A stretch of 21,468 nt of DNA from contig MU004185.1 in assembly GCA_010093605.1 (NCBI GenBank), positions 1-21,468 on the forward strand. The letters are read 5' to 3'. The notes below the pieces were generated by a model. It saw nothing but the letters and a program-made list of their open reading frames with translations, did no database searches and was not told the DNA's origin. The DNA is from Lophium mytilinum (taxonomy: Eukaryota > Ascomycota > Dothideomycetes > Mytilinidiales > Mytilinidiaceae). A program made the translations under genes and the position numbers. Each line of letters starts with the position of its first letter. Position 1 is the first letter of the stretch. This document shows positions 470 through 21,468 of this stretch, piece by piece.

Positions 470-741
470 TATATTATAGTGTTCTTACTAGAAGACTTTC
501 TATAGAGATCCTTTTAATTATAAATTTATATATCTTTTTTATATATATATATTATACTAATATTTTTTATAGGGCCTTTATAGGAAGCCTTTCTATAGTA
601 ACCCTTATATTACTGCGGTAGTAATTATACTTTCTACTTACTATAGTTCTAATATGCTTCCCCTACTATAACCTAAATTAAGTAAGTATAAATAAGTTTC
701 TATTATATATCTCTCTATACTCCTAATAAGAATAATAGTTC
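470..741. other. AT-rich non-coding spacer
   Basis: Very AT-rich sequence with runs of TATA and no frame that can be followed. It holds one copy of the dispersed palindrome at 571-606. From about 735 the plus strand becomes C/T-rich, which marks the start of relic D's purine-rich 3' part on the minus strand. Confidence 0.6.
571..606. repeat. Dispersed palindrome, copy nearest the telomere
   Basis: AGGGCCTTTATAGGAAGCC followed by TTTCTATAGTAACCCTT. It matches the family's GGGCC-core-CCCT pattern, with mutated arms. No frame or splice signals surround it. Confidence 0.6.
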
Positions 742-5169: not shown

Positions 5170-5287
5170 CTAATTAGAACCGTTAGAAAGAAAAAGAAAA
5201 AGATATTAAGAGATACTAAACTAAATCTAAAAAGTAGAATAAGGGCCCCTACGGGAAGCCTTTCTATAAAGACCCTACTAGTTATAC
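5170..5287 (-). other. Relic A intron 7 (probable), with palindrome
   Basis: Donor AAG|GTATAA at 5287; polypyrimidine tract, branch-like TTTCTAAC and acceptor TTCTAATTAG at 5170; 118 nt. Palindrome at 5241-5276. What follows 5170 does not clearly continue the protein, so the 3' acceptor and final exon are uncertain. Confidence 0.55.
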
Positions 5288-6090
5288 CTTACTATTAGAC
5301 TTCTCCGGCGCTATGCTAGTTCCCTTTAATTTACTACCATCCTCTTTACTATTAGGGTCGGTATCTGCACCTAATGCCGCGGGTGGTCGGCCGACGTTAG
5401 AATTATTCTTCCGCCTGCGTAGGTCTATTTTTGGTCTAGTAGAGTTTGCAGACTTCTACGCGGCAGCTTTCTTCTTAGCAGCCTTCCTTTCGCGCTAAGG
5501 GCGCTACTTAGTAATCTCTTTCTTTATTATATACTTATACGGACGATATATAAGGGATTTAGATATAGGGTCTTTCTTAGCTGCTTTATCCTTCTTTATA
5601 GTAGGCTTCTTTTTTGCGCCTTAGCGCTTCCAACTCTTATTAGTATTGCTAGAGGATATAGTCTTTAGGGTTGGCTGCAAGGCCCCTTCTATAAATTCTA
5701 GCGGGTTATCTAAGTTACTACTATAGTTGCTATTACGCTTAAAGGCAACTTTAGATGGTATAGTAGTAAAATCCGGGTAATTATTAAGATACTCCCCGTT
5801 TTACTTATTAGTCTTAGACGGGACGTTCTCTATATTAACGTCGGGGGTTTTAATATTCTTCTTATTCTGCTTATTATCTATATTAATATTAGCTTTTAGT
5901 AGTAAATAAAAAACTAGATCATCTATAGAATCCTGCGAGGAGATAGTAGATATTTCGCGCTGCCTCTTCTTCTATATATTAGGCAACGGGACGGGGTCTA
6001 TAGAAGGGGTCCTAATAAGGCGTCTATTAAAGGTGCTAAGAGGGCTAGAAGGTAGGGTTAAAGTAGGTTAACGGGTGGAAGTAGGAGCTG

Positions 6091-6182
6091 CTATAATAGT
6101 TAGCACTTAAGCAATATAATAGGCGATACTAAAGGGCCCTAGCAGGAAGGCTTTCTAAAAAGGCCCTAGAATGAATTCTTAC
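6091..6182 (-). other. Relic A intron 6, with palindrome
   Basis: Donor G|GTAAGA at 6182; branch GTGCTAAC and acceptor TATTATAG at 6091; 92 nt, phase 1. Palindrome at 6131-6168. The frame continues as AAPTSTR into the Lys/Asn-rich tail. Confidence 0.85.
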
Positions 6183-6551
6183 CTATATACTTTACAAGAA
6201 ATAAAGTATTATTCTTATACTCTTTACCTTTAGAGTTATTACTATTTAGCCTACTAAAAGGGTTATCGCCGTTTATATTACTAAAAATAGCGGGTACTTA
6301 ACGCAAAGGGTTACGCTCCGGCCTATGTTAATGGATAAAAGGGGTATAAGCATTTCTAGTAGCGCTCTTTATAGGGGTGGGCATATTAGATTTAGTAGAA
6401 TCTAAGTCTTTAACTATAATAGTAGACTTAGGGTTAGGCTTGCGCTTCTTAATAGCAGCCGCTGGTATAGTACTAGCTTTACGCTTCTACTTTAAAGCTT
6501 TACTATTTTATTGCTCTAGCGTCTTTAGCTTTAGCTTTAGGGTGGCTTTTA

Positions 6552-6639
6552 CTATAAAACACGAATTAGCAAAGTATAAAGAGGCAAGTAGGGCCCTAGC
6601 AGGAAGCCTTCCCGCTAGAACCTATAAGGGCGAACTTAC
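6552..6639 (-). other. Relic A intron 5, with palindrome
   Basis: Donor A|GTAAGT at 6639; branch-like TTTGCTAAT and acceptor TTTATAG at 6552; 88 nt, phase 1. Palindrome at 6590-6623 with an AGGAAGCCTTCCC core. Confidence 0.8.
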
Positions 6640-8042
6640 TGCTTGCAGGATAACGCTTAAGCCTTAAACCTAGCTTATTAACACGCGGTTTCTTAGGCGC
6701 TCTACTTGCACCCTTCTCCTACTCTTCTTCTAATTCCAATTTGGTGAATTCGTACGCTTATTCTTCTTAGAACTTATTACTAAACCCACTAGACTAAAAA
6801 GTTATATTGCCTCGCGTAAGGGTTATTAGAAATATAAGGATATCTTATAGGGAGTTAAAGCGCTTAATATATAATTCTACCGGCATATTTAAAATATCTA
6901 TTTCGCCTATAATAAGGCGGGGTGTAATGCTCTTATTATTATAGGTTACCTACGCATACTGGCTATCTAGGGTTAGCTTTTCCTTAGAGGTCCCCTCCAC
7001 CTTAATCTAGTTAGTGTTTAACGCAGCAGTAAGACTAGGAAGCGCTATCTACACCTAGCGCGAGAGAGTAAAGGCATTAAATGTGTCCTGGATAAAGAAC
7101 GCAGTTACTATAATAGTAAACTTCTGGCTAATCCTATATAAACGCGCTATTATTTACTTCTTAATCTAAATAGAGCCTGTAGGGTTAAAAAGATATATAT
7201 TATAGTAAGTAGACTATAGATTAAGCCTAGCTCTATTAGCCTGGTAACTAGTAATAAGGATCTTTACTTTAGAGTTAGGGTCGTTAAACACTAAGATAAG
7301 GTTGTCCCGGTTAGTAGTAGAGAGATTAGAGGCTAATATATAAGCATCTATTTTATAATAGTTAATAATCTTAGCAAGAATTATTTACTTATCCAGGTAG
7401 TTAGTCTAGATAATAACCTTCTCTATACGCTTAATAACGTTGTTAGCTAAATAGTATAGTAGTATAGCCACTTTAGGGGCATTATAGATAAAAAGGGCGA
7501 CAATATAATAAAAGGATGCGGACTTTACTTTAAAGTCTTTTTAATTAGGGTTAGTTTAGACGTTCTTATTCCGGGCAATTTACTTTATTATGCCTCGCAA
7601 AACGTCTATTTCCTTTAACTAGTGACCGCCATTATTCTTAAGAGGGATAATTTTCGGGCCGTCCTTAATCTTATTGCCTTCTAAATCTAAAACCTTCTCT
7701 TGCGGATATACTATTATGGCGCGCTTAGAGTAGACTAAAAATGGCGCAGTACTTATAAGGTTAAAAGCACGCATAGAGCATGCGTTAAATGCATAGGTGC
7801 GCTAGCCTACGCGGTTCTTAGTAGGAACTATTAATAACTTAAGGTAGGCTGGCGATTTATTGGCATAGATAATATGGCCTAGTTTTATAGGCTGTAGCTT
7901 AATTACTCGCGTAACTAACCGCGGAAGTAATTCTCTAATTCGGGTGGCAGGATTAGTAGAATTATTTAGGCATGTAGAAGGGTATAAGCAAGTAATTATA
8001 TACTTGCTAAAAATTAAGCGCAAATAAAGCCCCTGTATAATC

Positions 8043-8136
8043 CTGGAGAAATATTAGAAAATTAAAGTAAATAAGAGGAGAGATAAGGGCCCTGGCTAGA
8101 AGCCTTTCTACTAGGGCCCTTTATATAATAACTTAC
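8043..8136 (-). other. Relic A intron 4, with palindrome
   Basis: Donor CC|GTAAGT at 8136; pyrimidine-rich tract, TTCTAAT branch-like site and TCTCCAG acceptor at 8043; 94 nt, phase 2. The palindrome at 8085-8122 is the best-preserved copy, with AAGGGCCCT on one side and AGGGCCCTT on the other. One flank of the core reads GGCTTCTAGCC, a variant shared with the copy at 11622-11657. Confidence 0.85.
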
Positions 8137-8864
8137 GGGTTAAATAAAGGCAGAATAAAATTTTTAAAAGCCTTGCGTGTATACTAGAAAATTATACCTA
8201 AATAGTTATTAGGAAGCTTAAACGGATTATTAGTACCCGGAATAAACTTAGCTTTACCGGGTTTTAAGCAGTACGTGCGGAATTATAGATGCTTATCTCT
8301 TAGTTCTATAAAAGATATATAAGCAGGCATATTAGTAATGCCTATATATAGCGGGGTTCTACTATAGAGCATAGTAAAGTCTAAGTAAAGCTATAACGCA
8401 GTTAGGTGGAGGTTTACTTAGTTGCTTTTAATAAGCTAGCACTTGTCTATAAATTGGACGTTAAAACAGCCACTTAAGAGACCGGGCTAGGTGGAGCTTA
8501 GGCGATATTTAACCTAATTCTTTAGCTTAGTAAGATTATTGTTGCTATACTACTTTAATGCGGGCTAGGGACCGTGCCAACCGGCCATTACCTAATAGCT
8601 GGCAATTACGATGCTCTTAGTATTTACCTTATTTTTAGTATTAAATAAGGGATGGTCCCTGGTTAAGGTGTTATATAGAAACGTAGCGCTATAGAAAGCA
8701 ACTTAGCCCTTTAATAAATAGATGTAGAGCTTAAGTTTAGAACTAAACTTTGCAAGTTTATTCGCTATTTAGTGTACTAAAACGGAAGGCACAAGAAAAA
8801 GGAAGGGCTTCGCCGGCCCGGGGTCTTTCTTATCTATAACTTTGCGCTGGCGCTTAGTAATAAG

Positions 8865-8954
8865 CTATAATTAAATTAGTAGATGCTAAGAGAAACTATT
8901 AGGGGGGTAGTAGAAAGGCTTTCTATTAATACTCTTTAAAGAGAAATTGCTTAC
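8865..8954 (-). other. Relic A intron 3, with palindrome
   Basis: Donor TAT|GTAAGC at 8954; branch-like TACTAAT and acceptor TTATAG at 8865; 90 nt, phase 0. Removing it joins ATLIRY (after motif I) to LITKRQRK and on to motif Ia in one frame. Palindrome at 8901-8937, arms strongly mutated. Confidence 0.8.
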
Positions 8955-10662
8955 ATATCTAATAAGGGTAGCCATTAAAAATATCTTTCTAATACTAACC
9001 TTATCTATAATTAAAGCCCTACTAAGAAAGCCTTTCTATATAATATAGTATATATAGTAAGCCCTAGTAATCTACTACCACCTTAAGTAAATATTGCCAT
9101 TTATTATAATAAGGCGGGGTTTCTAATAGTTATAAATGCGTAGGGCCTTTATTACTTCTTTTAGGTTATCTAGCTAATAGGCTTTATTAGTTATTAGAAG
9201 GCGGAGTATACTCTATATTGTAAGATCTACCGCGGTTAGTATAGTAAAGGGGATAATATTCTTTACATTAATAGCGGTAGCCCTTATATTAGCCTCCATA
9301 TCTTAGGCATGTTTAATACTGTCTAGATTAGCATACTTGTCCTTATTTAGATCTACAGCGCGCATATTTAGGTGCTATTTAACGGTATATATAAAATCTC
9401 CTGCTATCTATCTAATTACCCGATATGCGTTGTATTAAAACTTTAACGAGTTCTAGTTAATTATTGCTCCGGTGCGCTTAGCATGCATAATTACTAACTT
9501 AAGCTCCTGTTTTATAGTGCCGGTGATGTACTTAGCACTAGTAATATTAACGTTGCCTTTCTTCTTATTAACTAGGTTTGCAGCAATTTCCTCTTTAGAT
9601 AACCCCTAGATAGGGTTGTCTGCGTTAACCTCTATATTAATGGCCGCGAGTTCCTCCTTAGTAAAATAAGAGGGCAACTGCCGACAGGGAGGCCTAGAAG
9701 GGCCTTAACGGAAAGGCTTCCTATTAATATTCTTACTACTATAAGCAATGGTTTTGGCCGGGGTCTTAGGTGCCGGTGCTAGACTAAGCTTTATTTTTTA
9801 AAGAATATTCTATATCTTAATTTAGTTCTTAGTACAGGCGGTTCTACTAGCTTAAGACGGGCCACTCTTAAACTCTATATTTTTCTTTAATTTAAAGAAG
9901 ATTCTAAGCGCTTTATTATTAGTAATATTAGCGCGGTTGTGCAAAAACCCACTAAACCGCTTCCGGTAGTAATTAAAGCATTAACTAATAAATTAAGCTG
10001 CCTAATCCACGGGTTTGTAGTTATCCGTCTTAGGCTAAGAAGTAGTATATCGCTGCAGATTATGCAACTTGCCAGTCTTAAAAGCGTTTAGAATAGTAGT
10101 AAAACTGGCCCCTTAATCCTAACTATGCATAGCGCGCTTTAGGTCTAAATACCTATCCTTATACTTATTCTAAATTGCTTAGAAATTAGGCTTAGCTAGA
10201 ATTACTTTAAGTTCTGCTTTTATTTAACTATAAAGCTTGGCTAACTTTATTCTACTAGCATACAGCGTGTTTACTAAGGCCTATAACTTCTCTAACTCTT
10301 TATCTTTTCTAGTACTAGTAACTAGCGCTTAAAGCTTCTCCTGCTCTTTATTAGAGTTCTTAGGGATATTAGAGTTATTACTATAGTTATCGCTATCTAG
10401 ATAAACTACTTTACTATTTGCTAATGTAAGCGTCTCCGGATCTATTATAGTGGCCGGCTAATCGCGCTTTAAATTAACATGGGCATTAACCCTTAATTTA
10501 GTAACTAGTAGGGAGGTAGAATTTAGATCTTCTAGCACTTTAGAAGAAGTAGATTATTTCTTATAGCTATCTACTAGGTTAGTTGCAGGTAATATGCGCA
10601 GGAATGCAACCTTTACTACTACTTTGCTAGGGTCCCTATTACTTAAGGTATTTATAGCTAGT

Positions 10663-10753
10663 CTATTAATATGTTAGCTTATTTTAAATAATAGAAGAAA
10701 GAAGGCAGGCAAAGGGCCCTAGTAGGAAGGCTTTCTGCCAAGACCCTTTGCAC
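10663..10753 (-). other. Relic A intron 2, with full palindrome
   Basis: Donor GTGCAA (weak) at 10753; branch-like GCTAAC and acceptor TTAATAG at 10663; 91 nt, phase 2 on both sides. The palindrome occupies 10711-10749, with AAAGGGCCCTAGTAGG and CCAAGACCCTTT as arms in plus orientation. Confidence 0.65.
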
Positions 10754-10824
10754 TATGCCGGGTATTTTTAGTATTATTATTTTCTCGACATTTTCTACCG
10801 CCGCATCTTTAAAATTAAGGCAGA

Positions 10825-10894
10825 CTAATCTACTAAGACTAGTAAAGGGCCCTAGCAGAAAGCCTTCCTGCAATAATTCTTATAATATACTTAC
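10825..10894 (-). other. Relic A intron 1, with palindrome arm
   Basis: Donor GAG|GTAAGTATA at 10894, acceptor GATTAG at 10825, 70 nt, phase 0 on both sides. It contains GCAGGAAGGCTTTCTGC followed by TAGGGCCCTTT (10844-10871); the donor-side arm is missing. The large duplication (copy 18588-21468) begins inside this palindrome. Confidence 0.65.
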
Positions 10895-11212
10895 CTCACT
10901 CCACTCTTAGAGAAATTGCGATGGAATAAACCTGTTAGCAGAATTAGCTATAACGTAACTTAATTTTACCTGCTGGACAGTAAACTTACTAAAAGGCTTA
11001 ACCGCTAGCTAAAAAGACGCCTAAAATAAGCTAATTGCGGCTCTAATGTAGCTAGGAAACTACTAACTATTATCTAGTAAGTAAGGGTCTAGCGCGCAAC
11101 TGTTCTATAGGTAGCTAGATAAGTGGAAGTAATAGGAGTGCGGTGGTGTAGAAGGAGAGGTTAGTATAGAAGTAAGAAAGTTAAAGCTGCCAGGCGGTAG
11201 ATAAGTTCGTGG

Positions 11213-11239
11213 GCGGCCGGGCCGATAGCCGCCGGCCGC
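11213..11239. repeat. GC-rich inverted repeat between relics C and A
   Basis: GCGGCCGG at 11213-11220 is the exact reverse complement of CCGGCCGC at 11232-11239, with an 11-nt loop. It lies between the stop of C (11342) and the readable exon 1 of A. The equivalent in the second copy (about 18948-18974) keeps one arm and has mutations in the other. The arms contain no CpA, which explains why they survive RIP. Confidence 0.6.
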
Positions 11240-11495
11240 TAAGACGCTAAGCCTTTAACAGTAAACTACTTAAGTTAACTCTTAAGGTTAACGTAATAGC
11301 TGTATATTATATAAGGTTAAAATATTGCGGGTGTAAATATATCAGCGTTTTACTTAATTTCGCCGATATATAAATATTTACGGTTAATCTATAATACTAC
11401 GCTATATATTACCTAGTTCTAGTAATATAGTACTACGCTAAGATAGGTTAATAGAACATTGCGCGTTGTTGTATAACTATTTGCCTACAGTATAA

Positions 11496-11657: not shown

Positions 11658-14600
11658 ATATCTTATACTAATTACTTTACTATCTTCCTTATTAATAATT
11701 CTTCTTTATAACGCCGCCCCTGCTAGTCTACCTATTAACGCTTAAATCTATATACTCCTTAGAACTCTTCTACTTAAGCCTTATTCTTCTAGGCCTCTTA
11801 CTCTAAGTCCTCTAAGTCCTCTATTTCTAAGCTGTAGTTACCTAAACTCTCTTTATACTTATACTCTTTATCTAATAACTAACTACTTATATCCCCCTCT
11901 TACTCCTTCTATATCGCTAAATAATTCTAGAATTCTTTAATTATTAGAATTCTGCCTAAATAAGCCCTTAGGCTATTTAGTGTATAGTGCTTAAACCTAA
12001 GCTGGACACGTTTTAGATTAACTTAACCCCTAGGGCCTATAATATTATCCTCTATTATTATTATCTTTAACTTTCCTGGGCTTCCCTAGGTTATATTCTA
12101 TACTTCCTTTGCAACTACGTCTATGCTAAGGTTAACTGCCCCCCCTTAAGCCTGTTCTTTAATATATTAGCTTAGTTAGGCTACCTTATAGTAGTAGCTA
12201 TTTAGTAGTTGCATATAGATCTACTATATATTTATAATTATATCTCTTCCCCTAATATTATCTTATATATCTTTAGAGTTGTTTTATTTAGCTTAACGCG
12301 TGGTTAAAATTTTGTTGTTATTATATCTTAAAAGAACCTAGAGTAATAAGGCGGCTCTTGCTTATAGATTATTAAGGAATTATTCTACCGTTTTTAGTAA
12401 CGCTTCATTTCTAATTATTGCATTTAATCTTCGCAATTTTATGCGGAAGGGACTGTTGTTCTATTTTTAAGTTTCTGCAGCTGGATCTATAATATTAAAT
12501 AGCGGCTAGACTTAATTAATCCAGCGTCTAGTTAAGTGCCTTAGATAATTTGTATTACTATTTCTAGCTACATTCTACACGTAGGTGTAGCTTACTATAA
12601 GTTCTAACTTTCTATATAGCTTTATAAGCATATTAGGATAAAGCGCAACTATAGATCTATTTAGAATACTCTTAAGAAATTAGTCGCGTAGTTCTTTACT
12701 CTTCTATTACGTCTTAGTATTTCTATCTTCTCCTATATACTATCTACTTAGAAGCTCGTATATATTAGTATAGTATGCCTTAATAATAAGCGCAGCTGCC
12801 TTACCTATCCATAGCGGTGCCAATCGCCAATCTTTTTGCACTTTAGTCCTATTTTCGCGTTAAATAGCTGGCGTGTACTATGCTGCAATACTATACTATA
12901 GATACCGCATCTCTATATTCTCCCTAGTAAGAGATACCTAAATCTAAGCTTTAGTAAACGTAGCTTAGAATTAATTCCTAAGGCCGGCTTGCAGTTAATT
13001 AACGCCTTAAGGGCTAAGTTGTGGGGGCGTTGTTGTCTAATCTAAGTACTCTAACTTTAGCTAAGCTATGCTATACTTCTTAAGGGAGTCTAATAACCTA
13101 AGGCTATACAAGGTTACAGGATTCTAGGGGTCTTTTTAATTTATCCACTCTTTTTTCTACAGTATAGATAATTAAGTAGGATTACCACATCTAGCAGTAA
13201 TTTACGCAAGGCGGATATAAAGAGATGCTAAATAACTATTTACTAGCTATTTATCTAGTATTACTATATGCCTAGCATTACGCCCCGGGGTAACCTAAAG
13301 AGACAGTACCTGGAAAAGAAATACCTAGCAATTAAGGTTTACAATAGTAAAGGCATTAACTTCTTCTATAGAAAGAACCTAGTAGGGGTAATAAGGCTTA
13401 CTACTATTGTCCGGCCCATCCTTTATAGTAAATTTAGGACTTGCGCTTTCTTTAAGTTGCTTAAGTATAGTAAGAAGTACTTAGAACTTAGTTTAAACCC
13501 TATAGAATAAGTGTCTATCTCTCTAGAGTATAGTATAGTGGCGTTAGAGAATAGCAGCAAGACTATCCTAAAGCTATTTTCTTTTTAATAATTCTCTAGA
13601 GCTACCTGCCGCTTTAAACCACCGCTTAATTATTTTAGTTAAGAACGTAAGAGCTTCTAGTTAAGTATTATAAAAGGGCGTAATATTCTTAACGGGTAAC
13701 TTAAGTATAATCTTATTACTATTATAGATTTTATTATATACTATACTACTAATACAGCTATAGTTACCTACTTAGAGCTCTACTATTAGAGATAACGCGC
13801 CCTAGATAAGATAGTAGGGGTACAATGTTATATAAATCTTTTCTTTTCCGCCGTTGTAGAAGTAAGTGGCCTAGTAGTTATTATAGCTAGTTTTGCGTAG
13901 AAGGGTAACCCCGGTATCTAGCTAATTAGTAGTTAGGATATCTTTATATCTATAGTTAATCTATATCCCCTTATCTAGTATATTAATTGGGTTTTTATTA
14001 AAAGTAGTAGTTAAAGTACGTAGTAGCTAATCTCTACTTTAAATTATACTTAAGGACTTATATGCCATTTTTAGATTATAACCCGAGACTACTAGGAATA
14101 CTCCTTTAAATAAATCTTTAGGTATAGTATCTATTTCTGCAAAGTTTTCTATGTTATAAAGAACTTAGTTCTAGAATTCTTAGAGTTAACACTATAGAAT
14201 TATATACTTAGTATTAATATAAGAGTCTCTAGATAATATTATATATTTTTCTTTCTTAACGCTTGCTTTACCCTATATAATATTAAAACTGTGTAGTATA
14301 TGCTACTACTTATTAGGTGTTAGAGTATACTTTACTACAGGTAAGATAATATTATTGAGCTAAGCTGCTTACATTATATCTAGTAGATGCAAAGTATTGC
14401 CCTTTTGCTTATTTAGTGTTGGCATCTAGGGGAAAAACACGTAAGTTTTAAATTAATGCTTATACCTGTGCCCTATGCAAAGCTACTTTATTATATAGAG
14501 CTTATGGCCGCGTATTATAATGCGTTAGTTTTAAGTAATACTTTAGAGGAAGGATAGTTATAGAGATAGTAAGAAGTACAAATTATAGGCCGCTAAAGTA

Positions 14601-16236
14601 GAGATGCCAATAATAACGCTATTAATATTATACACTCGCTGGATTTTAATCTCTTTATTTGCTATAAAGCTAGCTTTAGACCTTATAAAACTAAGCCTTA
14701 GAGTTTCTATATTACTAGTTTCTCCGCTTAACATTAATTTCTATAGGACATTATTAAAGTTATTAGAATTATTCTCTCTCTATAATAGCTCTAGTTGGCT
14801 TATTAGATAGAAGGCTGTATTGGCTATAATAGGCTCTTATTAGGAGGGAAGGTTCTAAGCCAGAAGAAAGCTAGTAACTTAGCTAAGGGATCTGCTCTAA
14901 GAAACTATTATATAGTTACTTGCTATATTATAATATTAGCTACTATATTATCTAAATAGAAAGAGTTAAGATATATAGTAAGTACACTAGACTTCTAACG
15001 CTAATTAGATTATACTTACTACATATAGAGTATTTACTAATAGATTATTATGCCTACGTATATTAGCTTTATATAAACTATAGGGCTTATAATACTTGCC
15101 TATTAGGGTCTATCTTATCTATAACTTTGTCTATAATCTCGCTGTTACCTTCACTATTTAAGGCTGTATTATCTACCCTACTGCCTTAATTCTCTAGTAT
15201 AACTTCGTTAAGTAAACCCAGTAATTTATCTATAGTGTCTTGCTATCCTTGCATATATATACCTTCTCTACCCTCTTTAACTCTATTATCTAATACCTTA
15301 TCTATATCTGCACCTGCTTCTATCTTATTCTTAAGTTAGGTAAATTCCTCTTCTATAACCTCGGTTACTGGCGTTAGGCGGAGAGATAATAAGGTAGCGT
15401 ACCACTCCATCTAAACCTAACCGTTGTTGTGCGCTAGTTGCATAAACCAACTTATATTAGCTAGCATTTCCTCCTTATCTATTTATTCCGCAGCGTCTAT
15501 TCTAGAGAGCACTTCTACGGCCTTATTTTATTGCGCTAAGAATAATTCCGCTGTAATCTCTTTGTTAGTTATTTGCGCGAGTATATAGAGCAGTAATACA
15601 GTAATAAGGGCTAGTGTTTAGCGTTATATTATTAGTTCTAGTTATGCAGGAGTAGAAGCTACTATAGTTTATTAAGCGCGTAAACTTGCGCGTAGTATTA
15701 TAGCCGTCTATAAAGTATTCTAGAGGGCAAGGATAGTATATACGCCTGTATATATATATAGTATAGCTGCGGGTTTAAGAAATACTTTGCAGAGATAGCG
15801 TATAGCGGGTAGAACCCAGCCCGGAGCTCTATTATTATTATTTACGGCTTGCCGAGGTGTCCCTACGCTGGAAGGTAGTAATAGAGAGGGCAACACCTCT
15901 CTAGTATCTAGAGGCGGTGGTAACGCAGGTGTATAAGGAGACAACGCGGAAGATATAGGTAACAGCAACTCTAATACTGCCTCTTCTACTTCTTTATCTA
16001 CTTAGGCTACTTCTTTATTTACTTTACTTTCTTTAGCTACTTCTTCTTCTTCTTTAACTGCTGCTCCCTTAATAGTCTATATAACAGCATACTTACTACT
16101 ATTACTCTAATCTTACTCTATAGCTTCCGTTAATTCTATGTTGCTTTAAATTTTAGGTATATATTAGGCCGCTCTTAACTTACTAGAGCGTGTACTACTG
16201 CTAGTAGACTGCTAGGTATAAGAAAGTTATATTAGT

Positions 16237-17111: not shown

Positions 17112-18128
17112 ATTAATTGCTTTATCTATAAACGTTGTATAAACTATATCCTGCCCTTTACTTTATATATTTTATTTAATGCGGCTGAAATTTCTATTAT
17201 ATAAGAATACTATCTAGTAGCAACCTATACTAAGGCGAGGCTATTATAACGCAAAACCCTTTCTATTATATCTATTACCCTCTATAGGCACCTACTACTA
17301 GGACTTCGCCTTTTCTATAATGCTTTAAATTTAATTGCGTATACTGCATATAGTATTATAGCTCTATTATAGTATCTTAATATCTAGGAGTTATTATATG
17401 CAGCGGTAGAAAGGCTGCTTAATTATAGGGCTATACTCTCTGCTGCTAGCTACCCTCTTCTCTTACCCTCTACACCTACCTAGAGCCATAACTACAGCCT
17501 ATAAAATATTTCTAAATTGCTAGAATACTATTGCATTGCATAATAAGTAATTTTCCTTATAAATATCTTTAACCTTATATTGTAGTGGTTCTATGCAGCG
17601 CTAGTTAAGGTCTTTATTAAGTGCAAGGCTGGCATTACGCTAAACTCTTTAAGTAACTTCTATTATTTAGAATCTTACCTCTGCATATAACTGCCACTAC
17701 TACTATAGCCTGCATATTAATTCTAAGTTAATAGATTACTATCGCATTATATATTATATATAATTCTTTATATATTTCTTCTATGCTATATTATAGTAGT
17801 TGCATGCAGTAGTAGTTACACTAATTCTTAAGCACAAGGCTATTCTTACGCTAAACCCTTTAAGTAATTTCCATTCTATGCCTGCGCACCCTGCGGCCTC
17901 TCTATATCTACCTTAAGCTACTACTACGGCTTGTAAATTAAATTAAAGTTAATAGAACGCTATTATATTGCGTTCTAAGTATTATTCTTCGCATGCATAC
18001 TCTATTTCATGTTATGGTGGTTAAATGCGGCGGTGCAAGGTTATGCTGCACGTAATTCTTAAAGGTTAATTTTCTCTATATTAAACTCGCTTCTCCCTAC
18101 CTAACTTTAACCCTCTAGCCCCTATAAT

Positions 18129-18140
18129 AACCCTAACCCT
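18129..18140 (+). repeat. Interstitial telomere-like repeat 1
   Basis: AACCCTAACCCT, two perfect telomere units, at the junction between the two 460-bp satellite units. Confidence 0.85.
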
Positions 18141-18560
18141 TTATATATAACTACTACTACTACTATAGCCTATATATTAATTCTAAGTTAATAGATTACT
18201 ATTATATTATATATTATATATAATCCTTTATATATTTCTTCTATACTATATTATAGTAGTTGCATGCAGTAGTAGTTATACTAATTCTTAAGCGCGAGGC
18301 TATTCTTACGCTAAACCCTTTAAGTAATTTCTATTCTATGCCTGCGCACTCTATAGCCTCTCTATATCTACCTTAAGCCACCACTACGGCTTATAAATTA
18401 AATTAAAGTTAATAGAACGCTATTATATTATATTCTAAGCATTATTCTTTGCATGCATACTCTATTTCACGTTATAGTAGTTAAATGCAGCAGTGTAAGG
18501 TTATACTGCACGCAATTCTTAAAGGTTAATTTTCTCTATATTAAACTTACTTCTCCCTAT

Positions 18561-18574
18561 CTAACCCTAACCCT
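18561..18574 (+). repeat. Interstitial telomere-like repeat 2
   Basis: CTAACCCTAACCCT near the end of the second 460-bp unit. The equivalent site in the first unit (18101-18114) reads CTAACTTTAACCCT, the same element with two C-to-T changes. Confidence 0.85.
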
Positions 18575-18587
18575 CTAGCCCCTATAA

Positions 18588-18975
18588 TAGTAGGAAGCCT
18601 TTCTATAATAATTCTTATAATACGCTTACCTTACTCTACTCTTAGAGAAATTATAATAGAATAAACCTATTAGTAGAATTAGCTATAATATAACTTAATT
18701 TTACCTGCTAGATAGTAAACTTACTAAAAGGCTTAACTACTAGCTAAAAAGACGCCTAAAATAGGCTAATTGCGGCTCTAATATAGCTAGAAAGCTGCTA
18801 ACTATTATCTAGTAAGTAAGAAACTAGCGCGTAACTATTCTATAGGTAGCTAGATAAATAGAAGTAATAGGGGTGCGGTAGTATAGAAGGAGAAGTTAGT
18901 ATAAAAGTAAGAAAGTTAAAGCTACTAGGCGGTAGATAAGTTTATAGGCGGCCGGGCTAATAGCCGCCGGCTACT
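18588..18975 (-). pseudogene. Relic A second copy, exon 1 only
   Basis: Corresponds to 10853-11240 of the left copy. It includes the exon 1 coding stretch and the intron 1 donor region (AAG-GTAAGC), then breaks off inside the intronic palindrome where the satellite begins. It never extends to any helicase motif, so this A copy is truncated after its first exon. Confidence 0.7.
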
Positions 18976-19076: not shown

Positions 19077-21468
19077 TTAGTGTTTTACTTAATTTTACTA
19101 ATATATAAATATTTATAGTTAATCTATAATACTACGCTATATATTACCTAGTTCTAGTAATATAGTACTGCGCTAAGATAGGTTAATAGAATATTGCGCG
19201 TTATTATATAACTATTTACCTATAGTATAAGGGTCTTACTAGAAAGCCTTTCTACTAGAGCCCTTTACTACTTATATTAAGTATATCTATTATTACCTCT
19301 CTTCTTATATATATTACTGCTATATATTTACTAGATAAGTATTTACGTACTATATAAGAGCCTAGCTAGAAGCCTTTCTACTAATACTTTTTATATCTTA
19401 TACTAATTACTTTACTACCTTTCTTATTAATAATTCTTCTTTATAACGCCGCCTCTACTAGTCTACCTATTAATGCTTAAATCTATATACTCCTTAAAAC
19501 TCTTCTACTTAAGCCTTATTCTTCTAGGCCTTTTACTCTAAGTTCTCTAAGTCCTCTATTTCTAAGCTATAGTTACCTAAACTCTCTTTATACTTATACT
19601 CTTTATCTAATAACTAACTATCTATATCCCCCTCTTACTCTTTCTATATTACTAAATAATTCTAGAATTCTTTAATTATTAGAATCCTACCTAAATAAGC
19701 CCTTAGGCTATTTAGTATATAGTACTTAAACTTAAGCTAGATATATTTTAGATTAACTTAACCTCTAGGGCCTATAGTATTATCCTCTATTATTATTATC
19801 TTTAACTTTCCTGGGCTTCCCTAGATTATATTCTATACTTTCTTTGCAACTATATCTATACTAAGGTTAACTACCCCCCTTTAAGCCTATTCTTTAATAT
19901 ATTAGCTTAGTTAGGCTACCTTATAGTAGTAGCTATTTAGTAGTTATATATAGATCTACTATATATTTATAATTATATCTCTTTTCCTAATATTATCTTA
20001 TATATCTTTAGAGTTATTTAGTTTAGCTTAACGCGTAGTTAAAATTTTATTGTTGTTATATCTTAGAAGAACCTAGAGTAATAATACGGCTCTTACTTAT
20101 AGATTATTAAGGAATTATTCTACTGTTTTTAGTAACGCTTTATTTCTAATTATTATATTTAATCTTTATAATTTTATATAGAAGGGACTATTATTCTATT
20201 TTTAAGTTTCTATAGCTGGATTTATAATATTAAATAGCGGCTAGACTTAATTAATCTAGCGTCTAGTTAAGTATATTAGATAATTTATATTACTATTTCT
20301 AGCTATATTCTATATATAGGCATAGCTTACTATAAGTTCTAACTTTCTATATAGCTTTATAAGCATGTTAGAATAAAGTATAACTATAAATCTATTTAGA
20401 ATACTCTTAAGAAATTAGTTATATAGTTCTTTACTCTTCTATTATATCTTAGTATTTTTATTTTCTTCTATATACTATCTACTTAGAAGCTTATATATAT
20501 TAGTATAGTATACCTTAATAATAAGCGCAGCTACCTTACCTATCTATAGTGGTGCTAATTGCTAATCTTTTTATACTTTAGTTCTATTTTTATATTAAAT
20601 AGCTAGCGTATACTATACTATAATGCTATACTATAGATACTATATCTCTATATCCTCCCTAGTAAGAGATACTTAGATCTAAGCTTTAGTAAATATAGCT
20701 TAAAATTAATTCCTAAGGCCGGCTTATAGTTAATTAACGCCTTAAGGGCTAAGTTATAGGGGCGTTATTATCTAATCTAAGTACTCTAACTTTAGCTAAG
20801 CTATGCTATACTTCTTAAGGGAGTCTAATAACCTAAGGCTATATAAGGTTATAGAATTCTAGGAGTCTTTTTAATTTATCTACTCTTTTTTCTATAGTAT
20901 AGATAATTAAGTAGAATTACTATATCTAGCAGTAATTTACGCAAGGCGGATATAAAGAGATGCTAAATAACTATTTACTAGCTATTTATCTAGTATTACT
21001 ATATACCTAGTATTACGCCCGGGGGTAACCTAAAGAGATAGTACCTAGAAAAGAAATACCTAGTAATTAAGGTTTATAATAGTAAAGGTATTAACTTCTT
21101 TTATAGAAAGAACCTAGTAGAGGTAATAAGGCTTACTACTATTATCTGGCCTATTCTTTATAGTAAATTTAGGACTTGCGCTTTCTTTAAGTTACTTAAG
21201 TATAGTAAGAAGTACTTAGAACTTAGTTTAAACTCTATAGAATAAGTATCTATCTCTCTAGAGTATAGTATAGTAGTGTTAGAGAATAGTAGTAAGACTA
21301 TTCTAAAGCTATTTTCTTTTTAATAATCCTCTAGAGCTATCTACTGCTTTAAACTACTACTTAATTATTTTAGTTAAGAATATAAGAGCTTCTAGTTAAG
21401 TATTATAAAAGGGCGTAATATTCTTAATAGATAACTTAAGTATAATCTTATTACTATTATAGATTTTA
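19077..21468 (-). pseudogene. Relic C second copy, partial
   Basis: Same minus-strand frame as relic C, ending at a TAA (19079-19077) where the left copy has TGA. The 5' part lies beyond the window. The in-frame palindromes are preserved at 19231-19266 and 19357-19392 but are more mutated. The density of RIP stops is higher than in the left copy. Confidence 0.75.

Follow-up and report, generated by a model that had tools for sequence, protein, structure and literature searches.

Why should the inferred introns of a decayed gene at the telomeric end of a contig each carry a copy of the same short palindrome? The question is raised by a stretch of 21,468 nucleotides from the ascomycete Lophium mytilinum (GenBank assembly GCA_010093605.1, contig MU004185.1, positions 1 to 21,468), analysed here as a whole and referred to as the window. 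It forms the telomeric end of contig C5 in a genome of 43.18 Mb and 24 contigs. The telomere repeat, the short introns of spliceosomal type and the RIP-like mutations agree with a filamentous fungus. The gene, termed relic A, is a predicted SNF2-family ATPase gene, and an original prediction had placed one palindrome in each of its seven inferred introns. That observation turned out to be largely right and, within one gene, statistically strong. It is proposed here that a discrete 39-bp palindromic repeat probably entered introns that already existed, before the repeated unit carrying the gene spread and was silenced by repeat-induced point mutation (RIP).

A discrete repeat, probably inserted into introns of ordinary size

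The repeat is a discrete palindrome of 39 bp, roughly AAAGGGCCCTAGCAGGAAG-S-CTTCCTGCTAGGGCCCTTT. A RIP-tolerant scan of the window and the 6 kb beyond it (partly N) found 15 copies at a score of at least 18, all of them inside the window, against none in the reversed sequence; at a score of 14, the same scan gave 34 matches against one. The repetition that was first noticed is thus confirmed. Eight of the 15 copies lie in relic A and seven outside it (Table 1). Within the gene, introns make up 637 of 5725 nt (11%) and hold seven of the eight copies, one per intron (P = 1.5e-6). This probability and the two further ones given below for the association are post hoc, concern one gene and take intron i1 as 66 nt.

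It was also claimed that only the palindrome is shared between these introns, and this holds. Across 11 site copies, the mean pairwise identity is 68% (range 56-82%), whereas the 12-nt flanks show 27% and 29%, and the column information drops to near background at both edges of the palindrome. The intron lengths first given, 70-118 nt, hold as well. When 39 nt are subtracted, i2, i5, i6, i7 and i8 are left with 50, 51, 55, 49 and 53 nt, respectively. Nine ordinary introns from SNF2 genes of the same genome measure 47, 50, 50, 51, 55, 56, 60, 61 and 68 nt. These were chosen by their splice motifs and open frames, with the gaps of C10 and C9, the first of C12 and the 16-nt one of C11 left out; for one of them, a choice of 43 nt failed the frame check, and 68 nt fits. 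None of the ordinary introns examined contains the palindrome. As the similarity stops at the palindrome edges and the remainder is of ordinary size in five of the seven introns, the data fit ordinary introns into which a discrete repeat was inserted.

The eighth copy in the gene, x3, is exonic. When intron candidates around it were searched over the 45 nt preceding and the 80 nt following the palindrome, the only in-frame ones measured 117, 120 and 123 nt and shared a single acceptor. They were rejected because they would remove a downstream stretch of 77 nt that scores 0.41 in the exon frame, i.e., at the 69th percentile of coding windows and above all off-frame windows. Since these adjoining nucleotides score as coding, x3 is read as in-frame codons ahead of the ATPase domain. 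The earlier suggestion of a distinct hairpin element that tolerates only introns therefore survives in part: the element is discrete and strongly concentrated in introns, but ‘only introns’ is wrong, given the exonic x3 and the seven further copies that the window holds outside relic A, and the hairpin shows no evident sign of being maintained.

Among 68 site-by-copy rows for the eight palindrome sites of relic A, none was empty. Nine copies of the gene stood behind each of six sites (x3 and i1 included), and 8, 8 and 7 behind i7, i8 and i9, two copies being truncated at the far end. As no site is empty in any copy of the unit, the palindromes are older than its spread.

The decayed gene and its seven inferred introns

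Relic A was searched and scored as positions 5170-10894 of the minus strand. Pfam matched Helicase_C in exon 5 (E 1.5e-6) and also SNF2-rel_dom (E 1.8e-5, slightly below the curated cut-off), and exon 5 found SNF2/Rad54-family chains in the PDB, with a best E of 1.6e-7. Against the PDB, exons 3 and 4 translated straight through i5 gave no match at E 0.01. The weak Pfam matches Exo_endo_phos_3, RsbRD_N, Spc42p and ECM10 were dismissed as chance.

A DNA search with the same stretch found nine copies including that of the window; two of these are truncated, and the other seven are complete or almost so. When the protein sequence of exons 3 and 4 was searched (E up to 0.001; match counts are lower bounds), the same nine places came up, one of them as two matches. 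The eight other copies are 90-93% identical to the window copy. The oriented alignment has 5743 columns, of which 1262 are variable; 1230 of these are C/T or A/G, as RIP predicts. Besides the ends and the two large truncations, its gaps are one 18-base indel and one of 2 bases. The upstream-flank alignments leave out the copies C9s and C11s, which are unusable there. The C21 copy is the least mutated and was taken as the reference; even here, 31 in-frame TAA or TAG codons occur among 846. Every copy found, in all nine places, is dead, RIP-mutated and subtelomeric.

The codon score tracks the exon frames across most of the gene. In the reference copy, TAA and TAG together number 24 in the exon frame of exon 3, versus 73 and 46 in the other frames, and 14 versus 50 and 37 for exon 5. 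The missing TGA stops of the exon frame were dropped as evidence of coding, TGA being rare in all frames here.

Support for the seven introns is uneven: it is firm for i6, i7 and i8, good for i5, and weak for i1, i2 and i9. The list of seven, each with one palindrome, stands with that reservation on the last three. In the reference copy, the reading frame switches exactly at the donor, branch and acceptor motifs of i6, i7 and i8; across the copies, the i8 donor is GT in six of eight and AT in two. At i5, the frame is unchanged, and the SNF2 profile has reached about position 40 where exon 3 ends (a hand count from the match coordinates) and stands at position 44 by residue 11 of exon 4. Because this leaves no room for i5 as protein, the intron is graded good despite its rarely preserved GT. 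The in-frame donor of i2 is GT in two of nine copies, GC in four, with the window among these, and AT in three. For i1, the donor GTAAGT at 10894, in phase 0, has no in-frame acceptor in the reference copy, where the alternative GTAAGG five bases upstream, in phase 1, is consensus-like and in frame. Five of the six phases checked earlier were reproduced, with i1 moving from phase 0 to phase 1. An intron position common to relic A and an ordinary SNF2 gene was also looked for, and the positions were not the same.

Table 1. Relic A, its inferred introns and the palindrome copies of the window (copies from the RIP-tolerant scan)
Feature	Position	Strand	Remarks
Relic A, SNF2-family ATPase gene (predicted)	5288..11250	-	Exons e1-e7; 5' end uncertain, ~11250; Pfam, PDB, stop and codon statistics
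Intron i9	5170..5287	-	3'-most; 118 nt; GTATAA donor in 7/7 copies, CTAAC branch, TTAG acceptor; without frame test
Intron i8	6091..6182	-	92 nt; phase 1; GTAAGA donor in 6/8 copies, CTAAC branch, frame change
Intron i7	6552..6639	-	88 nt; phase 1; GTAAGT donor in 8/8 copies, CTAAT branch, frame change
Intron i6	8043..8136	-	94 nt; phase 2; GTAAGT donor in 9/9 copies, CTAAC branch, frame change
Intron i5	8865..8954	-	90 nt; phase 0; follows motif I directly, within SNF2 domain; GT donor in 2/9 copies
Intron i2	10663..10751	-	89 nt; phase 2; CTGAC branch (C21 copy), frame change
Intron i1	10825..10899	-	75 nt with upstream GTRAGG donor; C21 copy
Palindrome in i9	5240..5278
Palindrome in i8	6131..6169
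Palindrome in i7	6588..6626
Palindrome in i6	8084..8122
Palindrome in i5	8899..8937
Palindrome x3	9697..9735		In frame inside exon 3; 39 nt = 13 codons
Palindrome in i2	10711..10749		Top scan score
Palindrome in i1	10844..10882		One degenerate arm
Palindrome upstream of relic A	11493..11531		Codon score non-coding
Palindrome upstream of relic A	11619..11657		Codon score non-coding
Palindrome outside relic A	17075..17113		Codon score non-coding
Weaker palindrome near telomere	476..514		Scan score 22.8
Weaker palindrome near telomere	569..607		Scan score 24.6
Second-unit counterpart of 11493 copy	19228..19266
Second-unit counterpart of 11619 copy	19354..19392

Some further features were seen in and around the gene. 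At about 9011-9049, directly before SNF2 motif I and in the coding frame, there is an exact 13-bp palindrome core, AGAAAGGCTTTCT, without a recognisable left arm and with a scan score at noise level. Stop counts and the codon score suggest a second long single-frame relic at about 11900-14800 of the minus strand (C21 599620-602700), which has no significant Pfam match and no palindromes. On C21, outside the stretch common with the window, positions 596081-596303 (L059) give a weak Helicase_C match (E 0.00096) and could represent one more piece of an SNF2-like relic. Just inside the telomere of the window, at 117-429, there are subtelomeric repeats 120 bases apart and 72% identical.

Distribution in the genome and a unit junction

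A half palindrome of 26 bp, with up to three mismatches, gave 61 matches in the genome against none in the control, each of them no more than about 41 kb from a contig end. A RIP-degenerate pattern of 24 bp, with up to two mismatches, gave 161 against 12. At zero or one mismatch, its matches are all subtelomeric (93 of 93); with two mismatches, five of the seven among the matches listed (there are 61 others) are internal and chance-like. The core pattern occurs at 55 places, against none in the control, and is subtelomeric in 50 of 50 among the matches listed. Of the 13 distinct first-unit sites in the window, the 24-bp pattern picks up 8 at zero or one mismatch, so it may overlook some internal copies that have diverged. 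A genome-wide search with mismatches had been suggested earlier as a check; the enrichment in introns is borne out within relic A, but the matches listed at zero or one mismatch are confined to the subtelomeres. Comparisons of the palindrome DNA with viral contigs and with plasmids gave no match.

The window also holds a second, truncated unit that starts inside the i1 palindrome, position 18588 matching 10853 (18561-18608 versus 10853-10873). This junction lies about 13 bases after a telomere-like TAACCCTAACCC stretch (TAACCC repeat), and, judged from the sequence, it looks like a chromosome break at a palindrome near telomere-like repeats. A tandem duplication of 463 bp (17685-18147 and 18145-18607, 90% identity) ends at the same junction.

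Weighing the explanations

According to the preferred reading, copies of the 39-bp palindrome would have been inserted into existing introns of the ATPase gene, lengthening them from about 50 to about 90 nt. Copies would also have entered the flanking non-coding DNA and, once, an exon, in frame, and those that broke the protein were presumably purged by selection during the active life of the gene. Later, the unit would have spread to at least nine subtelomeric places, with RIP mutating all the copies found. Both the insertion into pre-existing introns and the selection against exonic copies are what we infer from the present pattern.

Several observations weigh against this account. No empty site was seen, and a target-site duplication was not detected, the flanking direct repeat averaging 3.45 nt versus 3.35 nt at random places. 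The palindrome is undispersed in the genome, unlike the usual mobile element. After subtraction, i9 retains 79 nt and i1 about 36 nt, both outside the ordinary range; alternative introns exist at most of the ordinary loci; and the support for i1, i2 and i9 as introns is weak. Furthermore, if seven insertions fell at random, the probability of one landing in each of the seven introns would be 0.0055. One copy per intron may mean that the palindrome has a function, that its insertion is targeted or that intron length is limited.

It is possible, though unlikely, that the 39-bp hairpin is an intron-directed parasite. Such an element might travel via RNA or transcription-linked repair, would settle at most once per existing intron and would create neither introns nor target duplications.

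A functional splicing hairpin, placed once per intron behind the donor so as to shorten the donor-to-branch distance or to regulate splicing, is improbable. The probability of 0.0055 for exactly one copy in seven of seven introns speaks for it, as does the start of the copies 2-17 nt past the donor, but this closeness is not significant given the intron sizes (P = 0.07). The predicted minimum free energy reaches -26 to -31 kcal/mol in i2, i6, i7 and i9 and is weaker in i1, i5 and i8. When compared with shuffles, only i2 and i6 fold clearly better (z of -3.2 and -3.4), the values for the others being -1.8 (i7), -0.9 (i9), 0.5 (i1), 0.0 (i5) and 0.3 (i8). Counting G-T, the arms of each site copy form 13-18 pairs out of a possible 19; this pairing is real, and it beats most slid versions, as that of any palindrome must. 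However, all five measures of pairing and covariation were below the shuffled means, so that nothing indicates a preserved complementarity of the arms. This argues against a maintained hairpin, though with no more than 11 short sequences. The copies outside introns, and the ordinary introns that lack the palindrome, also tell against a role in splicing.

A gain of entire introns as copies of a single hairpin element, i.e., as introners of which only the palindrome is still recognisable, seems quite improbable. A copy does sit in every recognised intron of relic A, and inverted repeats together with multiplication as introns are described for the sister introns of Hypoxylaceae and for fungal introner-like elements in the excerpted text of PMC8469720. 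The excerpt of PMC9860276 reports introner families with median lengths of 30-654 nt, some with GC donors, and GC is the commonest i2 donor here. Nevertheless, the similarity is lost sharply at 39 bp, what remains is ordinary-sized in five of the seven introns, copies occur in an exon and outside relic A, and, at zero or one mismatch, none of the matches listed lies away from contig ends. On these grounds, the earlier idea of a minimal or decayed introner is not supported.

An equally doubtful proposal is local copying by DNA repair, in which break repair or gene conversion at DNA able to form hairpins, and no transposase, would have multiplied the palindrome inside a single locus, the introns being the places where copies survived. 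The subtelomeric position of all the listed matches at zero or one mismatch would suit such copying, and so would the lack of target duplications and the one unit boundary of the window that falls inside a palindrome just past TAACCC repeats. Yet only one such junction was found, and the palindrome took none of its flanking sequence with it. Finally, an artefact, with misread pieces of a decayed gene taken for introns and with repeats due to chance or RIP, is hardly credible and stands contradicted at most sites: the many stops, even in the least mutated copy, and the weakness of i1, i2 and i9 would favour it, but the reversed controls gave zero matches (the window scan at score 18 and the half-palindrome and core-pattern genome searches), the frame switches at the consensus splice sites of i6, i7 and i8, and, along most of the gene, the codon score agrees with the exon frames.

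The insertion of a discrete repeat may also be compared with known systems. Miniature inverted-repeat transposable elements (MITEs) and foldback elements are short, non-coding, inverted-repeat elements that may lie in introns. The palindrome resembles MITEs in its terminal inverted repeats, with their 13-18 pairs of 19, and differs from them in having no target-site duplication, a length of 39 bp only and, by the listed matches at zero or one mismatch, no dispersal beyond the subtelomeres. The palindromic elements of Rickettsia, which are bacterial, longer and noted in coding sequence, are palindromic repeats tolerated in frame in protein genes. The exonic x3 recalls them, although it is one of eight copies in the gene while the other seven are intronic, and the likeness is one of description rather than of compared sequence.

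The fungal introner-like elements of Dothideomycetes are repeated intronic sequences tied to stable structure or inverted repeats, according to the excerpt of PMC8469720. In these, the whole intron is repeated, and in many genes; here, 39 bp recur in otherwise unrelated introns of one gene, along with non-intronic copies. The identity falls from 68% inside the repeat to 27-29% in its flanks, so the whole intron is not what is repeated, and the listed matches at zero or one mismatch, all subtelomeric, do not point to many unrelated genes. Introner-like elements are also the subject of PMC4457414, and telomere-associated elements that of PMC12857005. The sister stwintrons and cropped symmetrical introns of Hypoxylaceae share the palindromic symmetry and the lack of flanking duplications, but, according to PMC8469720, their introns end in inverted repeats of 45-55 nt and arise at new positions. 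In contrast, the present palindrome lies 2-17 nt inside the donor and stops 15-70 nt before the intron end, and the remainder is of ordinary length and unrelated sequence in five of the seven introns. A search of the titles and abstract openings in open PubMed Central found no report of a short palindrome repeated inside otherwise unrelated introns.

If one short palindrome was indeed collected intron by intron, repeats in many introns need not mean intron gain. This matters since introners are usually recognised by just such repeats, found in many introns. Three features would together form a test that separates an insert from an introner: sharp edges of the repeat, introns that are ordinary in size once it is subtracted, and copies that lie elsewhere than in introns. 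Should the rule of one copy per intron be general, it would point towards a so far unknown way of spreading that is tied to splicing or transcription.

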